A stretch of 45,743 bases of DNA from a bacterium (GTDB lineage Bacteria > Patescibacteriota > Patescibacteriia > UBA9934 > GWF2-40-263): positions 1-45,743 of the forward strand of contig JAGVFR010000014.1 of NCBI GenBank assembly GCA_020057555.1. The letters run 5' to 3'. Shown piece after piece: positions 26,208-27,652 of the stretch. Position numbers and translations under genes: made by a program. Below the pieces are notes generated by a model, which did no database searches, was not told the origin of the DNA, and was given only the letters and a program-made list of their open reading frames with translations. Each line of letters opens with the position of its first letter. The first letter of the stretch is position 1.

Positions 26208-26319
26208 CCCCTTTCTGGTTTGAATCCATCTGCACCAATTGCAGATGGAGGAAAAAGAATATCACTTATTGATCGAAACGTCAAGCTAGGCACCATCGGT
26301 GTATAATGTTGCAGTATGT

Positions 26320-26456
26320 CCGGTAGGACAACAATGATCTGTCACCTGTTCTGCTGGGCGTTAATACAGTCTGTACGACACCCTACGTAGGGAGTTCGTA
26401 ACAATGTCAGTCAAAGAAATACTAACAAGTAATAAATATCATTGTTGTACTACCGG
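26320..26456. mobile_element. 137-bp MITE-like element with 19-bp TIRs and 6-bp target-site duplication
   Basis: CCGGTAGGACAACAATGAT (26320-26338) / ATCATTGTTGTACTACCGG (26438-26456), 18/19 complementary; GTATGT directly abutting both ends (26314-26319, 26457-26462). Confidence 0.78.
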
Positions 26457-26458
26457 GT

Positions 26459-27652
26459 ATGTCCATCCAAACATCTCACAAACGCTCTTTTGCTCATCTT
26501 TCAGCACTTCCGACTTTGGCTTCAAATCGAATGATCGCGTTTATAGGCTCGAGCATTGTTGGAGTTTTCCTTCCAATTTATATTTTTGAATTTTTTGGTC
26601 TTTCAATTACACACGTTTTAGCTTGGTTTGCGATTAACTTTGCGTTTAAACTTCCATTCTACGTTCCGGCTGCCAAAATATTTTCACGCGCAGGACTTGT
26701 TGTGAGTATGGTTATAGGGACTATTGGACTCGTGATCTTTTATTGGATGTTTTTTTTGCTCGATCACGGAAGTTCGATAAATCCATTTGTTTTGATGGCA
26801 ATCGGAATCGTAGGACTCATGCTTGATGGTGTTTTTTATTGGTCGCCGTATCACATTGATTTTGCAAAATTTTCAGACGCGAATCACAGAGGCAAACAAC
26901 TTGGAATATATTATGGTTTGCAAGAAGCGGTTAGCATTCTCACTCCACTTATAGCTGCGTTTATTTTGATGCGTTTTGGTTATGAAATGAATTTTTTTGT
27001 CGGACTACTACTCACAACAGCTTCAATTATTCCACTTTTTTTCGTTTCAAAATATAAAGTGACTTATGAATTTGGTTACTTTGAAAGTTTTCGAAAACTT
27101 TTTTCAAAAAAATATATTGCAATGACGCTTTCAATGGCGGCACTTGGAGCTGAAAATATTGTCGGCGTTATTGTTTGGCCGATTTTTTTGTTTTCCGTTT
27201 TTAACGGAAATTATTTAGAAGTCGGTTTTGTAACAGCCGTGATCGTTGTGATTAGTATGATTGTTGAATTGATCGTTGGTCGCCAAATTGATCATTTGAC
27301 AGCGCAAAAAATGTTGAAATTTGGTTCGTGGATTTATGCGCTTGGATGGATTGCAAAAGGATTTGTTCAAACAATCACAGGAGTTTTTGCGGCTTCAACT
27401 TTTCACAGTTTTGGTTCGATTATGATGCGCATGCCGCTTGATACAATGAGCTATCAGCAAGCGGCCGACTCCGGACATTACATTGACGAATTTACTGTTT
27501 TGCGAGAGATGGCAATCGGAATTGGAAGAGTTGCGATTTTAGTTCTGTTGATTCCGGTCACGATGAATTTTTCAATCGGTTCAGCATTTTTTATCGCGGC
27601 CCTTGTTTCACTTGGTGTGAATTGGCTCGCGCAATATAAAACGCAAGAATAA
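26459..27652 (+). CDS. Major facilitator superfamily-like transporter
   Basis: About 12 hydrophobic segments, 397 aa; central NHRGKQLGIYYGLQEAV loop. Confidence 0.8.
   Translation: MSIQTSHKRSFAHLSALPTLASNRMIAFIGSSIVGVFLPIYIFEFFGLSITHVLAWFAINFAFKLPFYVPAAKIFSRAGLVVSMVIGTIGLVIFYWMFFLLDHGSSINPFVLMAIGIVGLMLDGVFYWSPYHIDFAKFSDANHRGKQLGIYYGLQEAVSILTPLIAAFILMRFGYEMNFFVGLLLTTASIIPLFFVSKYKVTYEFGYFESFRKLFSKKYIAMTLSMAALGAENIVGVIVWPIFLFSVFNGNYLEVGFVTAVIVVISMIVELIVGRQIDHLTAQKMLKFGSWIYALGWIAKGFVQTITGVFAASTFHSFGSIMMRMPLDTMSYQQAADSGHYIDEFTVLREMAIGIGRVAILVLLIPVTMNFSIGSAFFIAALVSLGVNWLAQYKTQE

Follow-up and report, generated by a model that had tools for sequence, protein, structure and literature searches.

The window analysed here is the whole 45,743-nucleotide contig JAGVFR010000014.1 of a bacterium of the Patescibacteriota (assembly GCA_020057555.1, referred to below as G000; 849 kb in 30 contigs, nearest to metagenome-assembled genomes of Uhrbacteria), in which a short inverted-repeat element lies at the start codon of a gene encoding an MFS transporter. 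Upstream of the element, the −10 box TATAAT of the host gene (26302–26307, + strand) is separated by 8 nt from a first ATG, which forms part of a TATG motif (26315–26318, + strand) and, judging from the comparison of copies described below, represents the original start codon and the left copy of a 4-bp target duplication. The element, a non-autonomous miniature inverted-repeat transposable element (MITE) by the same comparison, occupies positions 26319–26457 (+ strand; 139 bp with its 20-bp ends) and is bounded by a left (26319–26338, + strand) and a right (26438–26457, − strand; delimited from the window sequence and the copies) terminal inverted repeat (TIR), which differ by one mismatch and by a change of the first base, T here and C in the family. 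A second TATG (26458–26461, + strand), the right copy of the duplication on comparison of copies, provides the current start codon of the MFS gene (26459–27652, + strand), whose 397-aa open reading frame (ORF), read from the right ATG, is intact and matches Pfam MFS_1.

The element thus separates the MFS promoter from the current MFS ATG, a geometry already described in an earlier note on this DNA, and a consensus scan detected no element-internal promoter directed toward the MFS gene. A 24-codon mini-ORF runs from the left ATG (26316–26390, + strand; MSGRTTMICHLFCWALIQSVRHPT); its protein-coding status is not supported, its length varying among the copies from 13 to 80 codons or more with no evidence of a protein. 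The element strand folds with a predicted energy of −42.7 kcal/mol against a mean of −28.6 for shuffled sequences (z −4.05), which bears out the hairpin potential noted earlier, and it has no Rfam match. The earlier suggestion of a silenced allele finds no such backing, the MFS ORF being intact with a dN/dS of 0.078 relative to the congener G002, a value that mostly reflects the time before insertion.

Copies and start-codon sites

Copies of the element were sought in relatives by BLAST, end-pattern and covariance-model searches. The other copies anticipated by the earlier note exist: 22 were recovered over three congeneric genomes, 16 in G001 (JACQXU, a Candidatus Uhrbacteria metagenome-assembled genome), 5 in G002 (JACPHT) and the single window copy in G000. 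Within the window the end pattern is confined to this element, and it gave 0 matches in shuffled sequences. Twenty copies are complete and show 73–98% identity in the alignment with nearly invariant ends; the copy at a livH-like gene is partial, and one further copy is cut by a contig end. From the window alone, the element had been delimited as 137 bp bounded by 19-bp inverted repeats matched at 18/19 positions (CCGGTAGGACAACAATGAT, 26320–26338; ATCATTGTTGTACTACCGG, 26438–26456), with GTATGT (26314–26319 and 26457–26462) abutting both repeats as the presumed duplication. The repeats are present as described, but the boundaries are not. Because the flanks across the 20 complete copies read N-TATG-C on the left and G-TATG-N on the right (with single left-flank substitutions to TATT in the lipoprotein copy and AATG in the secF copy), the element is read as 26319–26457, running from C (T in the window) to G, and the duplication as TATG. 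On this alignment, the end repeat is 20 bp long (CCCGGTAGKACAACAATGAT), and it is by chance that the outer G and T of the window GTATGT agree on both sides: the G on the right is part of the element, and the T on the left occupies the position of the first C of the family.

Two minor features of these copies may be recorded here. The sole end-repeat mismatch, at columns 13/137 of alignment A1, is mostly G.A, is T.C in the grpE and rimK copies and becomes T-A in rpsL, as if both ends exchange sequence. In addition, a different inverted-repeat element of about 190 bp (TATAGTCATCACATTATGAAAT...ATTTCATAATGTGATGACTATA; L091:2066–2253, G001 contig C46) sits within the start-codon MITE of the livH-like gene, which it has shortened.

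In 20/20 complete congeneric copies an ORF begins at the right TATG, in one orientation throughout, and the partial livH-like copy also lies at a start codon in the same orientation. The host genes comprise MFS, rpsL, ftsA (which carries two tandem elements), gyrB, ribF, ileS, infB, grpE, a rimK-like gene, infC, rpmI, rpmE, secD, secF, cysS, a kinase, a lipoprotein and two unknowns; Pfam confirms S12, IleRS, IF3, L35, L31, CysRS, MFS and the livH-like permease, the remaining names in the congeners being read from N-termini. When orthologs were located in all three genomes with one query of joined host N-termini, 18/19 host genes proved to have, in a sister genome, an ortholog whose start is uninterrupted and whose upstream sequence is similar, and no site is occupied in more than one of the three congeners. 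Empty sites are thus available for direct comparison (TATAATgttccaaTATGTCTATCC, TATAATacgcaaTATGTCTATCC), as illustrated by ribF, where an occupied site (..ttagattaaataagTATG-C[element]G-TATGCGTGAATTG) contrasts with its empty counterpart (..tagattaaattagTATGCGTGAATTG). The uninterrupted MFS orthologs of G001 and G002 retain the same TATAAT box at a similar spacing from the ATG, and none of the other copies precedes an MFS ortholog. The earlier proposal that a short transposable element landed on a start codon and regenerated the ATG is therefore upheld by both the other copies and the empty sites.

In the window, TATG occurs at 21 start codons (of 32 genes), at 49 other non-coding positions (70 non-coding in total) and 190 times inside genes, so that the chance of finding 20/20 copies at start codons among non-coding TATGs is about 3e-11, an estimate for which genes were hand-picked from ORFs. 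A T precedes the start codon in most genes of the genus (21/32 in the window set), often about 8 nt past a TATAAT-like box, which suggests that leaderless or near-leaderless transcripts are widespread in the genus. The earlier view of the target as a leaderless gene fits the window site, with its TATAAT box 8 nt before the left ATG, but does not extend to every site of the family, some of which lie within operons. Targeting of the transcription bubble at leaderless promoters was considered, since many sites have −10-like boxes, and rejected as a general rule because rpsD (directly after rpsK), grpE, the rimK-like gene, secF and several post-stop sites look operon-internal. An N-terminal fusion read in frame (MSVKEILTN..LPG-M) was likewise not accepted as functional: many 135-bp copies have it open, but in others, including that of the window, it is out of frame.

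A wider family was detected with the covariance model and the end pattern. A second subfamily is present in G001 and G002, and relatives from further genera and families within the order are 75–312 bp long, with unrelated internal sequences and ends that differ from one relative to another yet complement each other; over other genera, orders and classes the size range is 75–349 bp, with NATG on both sides. Flanked by TATG (CATG at tmk), these relatives of the order occupy the start codons of miaB, an era-like gene, parB, rpmB, tmk and others in G009, of an ftsZ-like gene and of rpsD directly after rpsK in G036, of uvrD in G037, and of further genes in G003, G021, G013, G046 and G068. Because the tmk copy carries CATG on both sides, the base before the ATG comes from the target. 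The end repeats covary, with 51 compensatory cells where 2,000 shuffles gave 12.9 on average and 26 at most, in a control that ignores relatedness. Pattern matches in viral contigs were either fortuitous or phage sequence lacking a second end, and a Nitrobacter match (L052) had one end only and was attributed to chance.

A GIY-YIG nuclease in the full-length form

The full-length form of the family is about 310 bp long and consists of the TIRs and one ORF, which encodes a GIY-YIG nuclease of about 95 aa. G037 contains two such members, in which the ORF starts at the left, host-derived ATG. The GIY-YIG domain (PF01541) is matched above the curated cut-off (E values of 5.7e-16 and 7.8e-13), and Tyr, Arg, His and Glu columns are invariant in the GIY-YIG proteins; by sequence, the closest solved structures are UPF0213 GIY-YIG proteins (1zg2, 1ywl). 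In G001, the adk locus shows the same architecture between ends nearly like those of the window element, and holds the best-preserved nuclease copy of the genus. That full-length relatives code for a GIY-YIG nuclease, and that insertion at start codons is the rule in the family, goes beyond what the earlier note could see. In the window element, the left repeat codes MxGRTT, in which the N-terminus of the GIY-YIG ORF (MPGxTT) survives as a relic.

A protein model (A2) built from the three GIY-YIG proteins of G037 and G001 was run over 381 genomes of the class. Its top matches include the repeat-coded N-terminus (MPGATT, MPSNKT, MPRNTT, MPGSTT and others), and eleven further matches examined in other orders show complementary ends (10–14 of 14) with TATG on both sides. 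Among the host genes of the coding elements are topA, rpsR and pilB-, nrdD-, porD- and comEC-like genes, and among the elements in the class matches the nuclease stop codon falls 8–33 nt before the host ATG. Class matches that lack the repeat-coded N-terminus have no convincing ends at those loci, and most small GIY-YIG ORFs in the family of the window bacterium lie outside such elements. A search of the phylum added members in other classes (L293, L294, L291 and L292), the duplication being shifted by one base in L291 and L292 (ATGC/ATGA).

The window insert has inverted repeats, a duplication with empty sites, dispersed non-coding copies and a related autonomous element, the features by which a MITE is recognized. 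Multiple copies, empty sites, the duplication, the start-codon position, the fixed orientation and the linkage of the ends to GIY-YIG are all read directly from sequence, and together make it probable that the insert is a non-coding MITE of a start-codon-inserting element family whose full-length form codes for a GIY-YIG nuclease.

Proposed mechanism and rival explanations

Integration of such an element duplicates 4 bp that include the ATG, usually TATG. The left ATG, together with the promoter or ribosome-binding signals of the host, would then drive expression of the nuclease, whose first codon in most copies is the host ATG and whose first residues come from the left repeat, while the right ATG serves as the start of the host gene and leaves its protein unchanged. 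In the window, a deletion derivative would have inserted at the MFS gene, so that the old promoter now faces the mini-ORF and the MFS gene would restart at the foot of a hairpin of about 24 bp. We infer that the GIY-YIG protein moves the element by cutting its ends and the target, and that host expression survives through re-initiation or through a hairpin that joins the two AUGs; the gap between nuclease stop codon and host ATG would suit termination-reinitiation in the coding elements, whereas the MITEs could offer the hairpin only. The start-codon sites of the coding elements may be accounted for by selection for nuclease expression, which does not cover the MITEs, whose sites would reflect either an intrinsic target choice or some other filter. 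Start codons might perhaps be recognized through translation or transcription, beyond the DNA sequence alone. That these elements form a new class of transposon, in which a GIY-YIG nuclease of about 95 aa acts as a transposase that recognizes start codons, borrows the ATG and is tolerated through restart across a hairpin, is a proposal on which we find ourselves evenly balanced.

Several observations weigh against the assignment to a GIY-YIG element family or against parts of the mechanism. GIY-YIG nucleases are known for roles in homing or repair and not as transposases, and no GIY-YIG gene of this kind was found in the window genome. The adk element has a left start codon decayed to ATT (TATT), L292 starts its nuclease from an internal ATG, and the reading frame that begins at the host ATG is not open in L319. 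No site consensus beyond TATG was seen, which leaves the choice of start codons by the MITEs unexplained. Moreover, 2 of about 60 relatives seen lie off start codons, both with reversed internal sequences: L171/L196 (G009:C8) is at the stop codon of a gene (TATGA end) and L249 (G001:C6) lies beside a terminator. They are exceptions that any targeting model must account for.

An unlikely alternative is that the elements are mobilized in trans by an ordinary DDE, HUH/Y1 or tyrosine enzyme, with the GIY-YIG ORF as a passenger or accessory. TIRs with a short target duplication are the usual anatomy of DDE transposons, and the constant orientation with respect to TATG is reminiscent of insertion by a single-strand (HUH) or recombinase route. 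Y1 transposase genes are indeed present in G000 and G002, but G001, the genome richest in copies, has no match to Y1 (PF01797), and the Y1 loci, among them the two of G000 (C13:93–416 and C20:24429–24740; IS200/IS605 or RAYT-like), lack ends of the present type. No DDE, HUH, serine/tyrosine or DEDD transposase was found between the ends, the transposase families other than Y1 not having been scanned genome-wide; TIR pairs in the three genomes enclose only MITEs or GIY-YIG, and, across orders and classes, such ends repeatedly enclose GIY-YIG as their sole ORF. It is rather improbable that the elements are to be explained by neutralization at the RNA level, in which the stem joins the two UAUGs and a ribosome at the first AUG slides or hops across to the second one. 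Ribosome hopping has precedents in T4 gene 60 and in the byp elements of yeast mitochondria, hairpin inserts within genes that are flanked by a repeated codon; byps, however, lie inside ORFs and are skipped, whereas the present elements are at the start codon and bypassing would be hypothetical. A covarying stem has a UAUG repeat placed precisely on either side of its base, the insert is tolerated in essential genes and some relatives keep a Shine-Dalgarno AGGAGG upstream of the left AUG only; yet nuclease-coding copies could use ordinary termination-reinitiation, and hopping bears on tolerance, not on origin. Random integration at NATG, with start codons prevailing because insertion there spares the frame and other copies are purged, appears quite improbable. 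In-gene insertions would usually be lost from such compact genomes and an autonomous form could not express its ORF away from a start codon, but non-coding TATGs away from start codons are 2.3 times commoner in the window than those at start codons, against the 2 off-start relatives, and the uniform orientation of all 20 complete congeneric copies is left unexplained. Lastly, that the hairpin is a conserved riboregulatory leader resembling a MITE by chance is hardly credible: its position is constant, with the promoter or an upstream gene on one side and the start codon on the other, its orientation never varies, and it folds strongly and has partly conserved internal sequence, but host genes differ per species, sisters have empty sites, copies occur in tandem with a precise duplication and no Rfam match, and internals are unrelated between families, with one internal pair only showing a change on both sides.

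Relation to known systems and wider implications

MITEAba12 of Acinetobacter (PMC6382973) is likewise short and non-coding, with near-perfect TIRs, a short duplication, dispersed copies and empty sites, but the present family differs in its start-codon position in every complete congeneric copy, its single orientation and its GIY-YIG-only parent. With GIY-YIG homing endonucleases of the I-TevI type it shares a nuclease domain family carried on a selfish element (PMC1564403). In homing, however, the copy is made into a cognate allele, and homing enzymes reportedly do not recognize their own mobile DNA (PMC1564403), whereas the present elements have TIRs, target duplications and many unrelated target genes that share only NATG. 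Small UPF0213/YhbQ-like GIY-YIG proteins are described as stand-alone genes, unlike the element-borne nuclease. Insertions encoding GIY-YIG or LAGLIDADG nucleases are found in the same bacterial group, the candidate phyla radiation (PMC11270868); these are located in rRNA genes and regarded as introns or insertions, and the paper, which reports GIY-YIG to be sparse there, mentions neither start codons nor transposons. IS200/IS605 palindrome-associated elements and IS110 (seekRNA/bridge RNA; PMC11187229) show a comparable directional, sequence-specific insertion, but neither a Y1 nor a DEDD enzyme lies between the present ends, and IS110 guides read long targets whereas the present sites share NATG alone. 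In the openly licensed literature, to which this comparison refers, no prior start-codon transposon or GIY-YIG transposase was found, and the family appears to be previously undescribed, although a description elsewhere is possible.

Essential genes are normally closed to transposons. Here, elements lie on the start codons of ribosomal protein, initiation factor, tRNA synthetase, topoisomerase and division genes with the protein sequence untouched, because the ATG is duplicated, which would be a neat solution for life in a compact genome. If the proposed mechanism holds, the GIY-YIG fold would gain a transposase role, some annotated small GIY-YIG genes in Patescibacteria would be mobile elements, gene starts and operon structure in this group would have been reshaped by them, and there may be a very small system for integration specifically at start codons.

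Two further observations concern loci with GIY-YIG ORFs. At L264 and L266, a second element, bounded by separate ends, directly follows a coding GIY-YIG element, the ATG between them being shared; in L264 this second element is a MITE with rodA downstream, an arrangement that resembles the ftsA tandem of G001. At L311, L316, L287 and similar loci of distant Patescibacteria, small GIY-YIG ORFs with their own internal ATG lie just upstream of gene starts between other complementary ends, such as CCCTGTGAAA/TTTCACAGGG before ychF and CCCCGCTAGAGA/TCTAACGGGG before thrS, and possibly represent sister element types.
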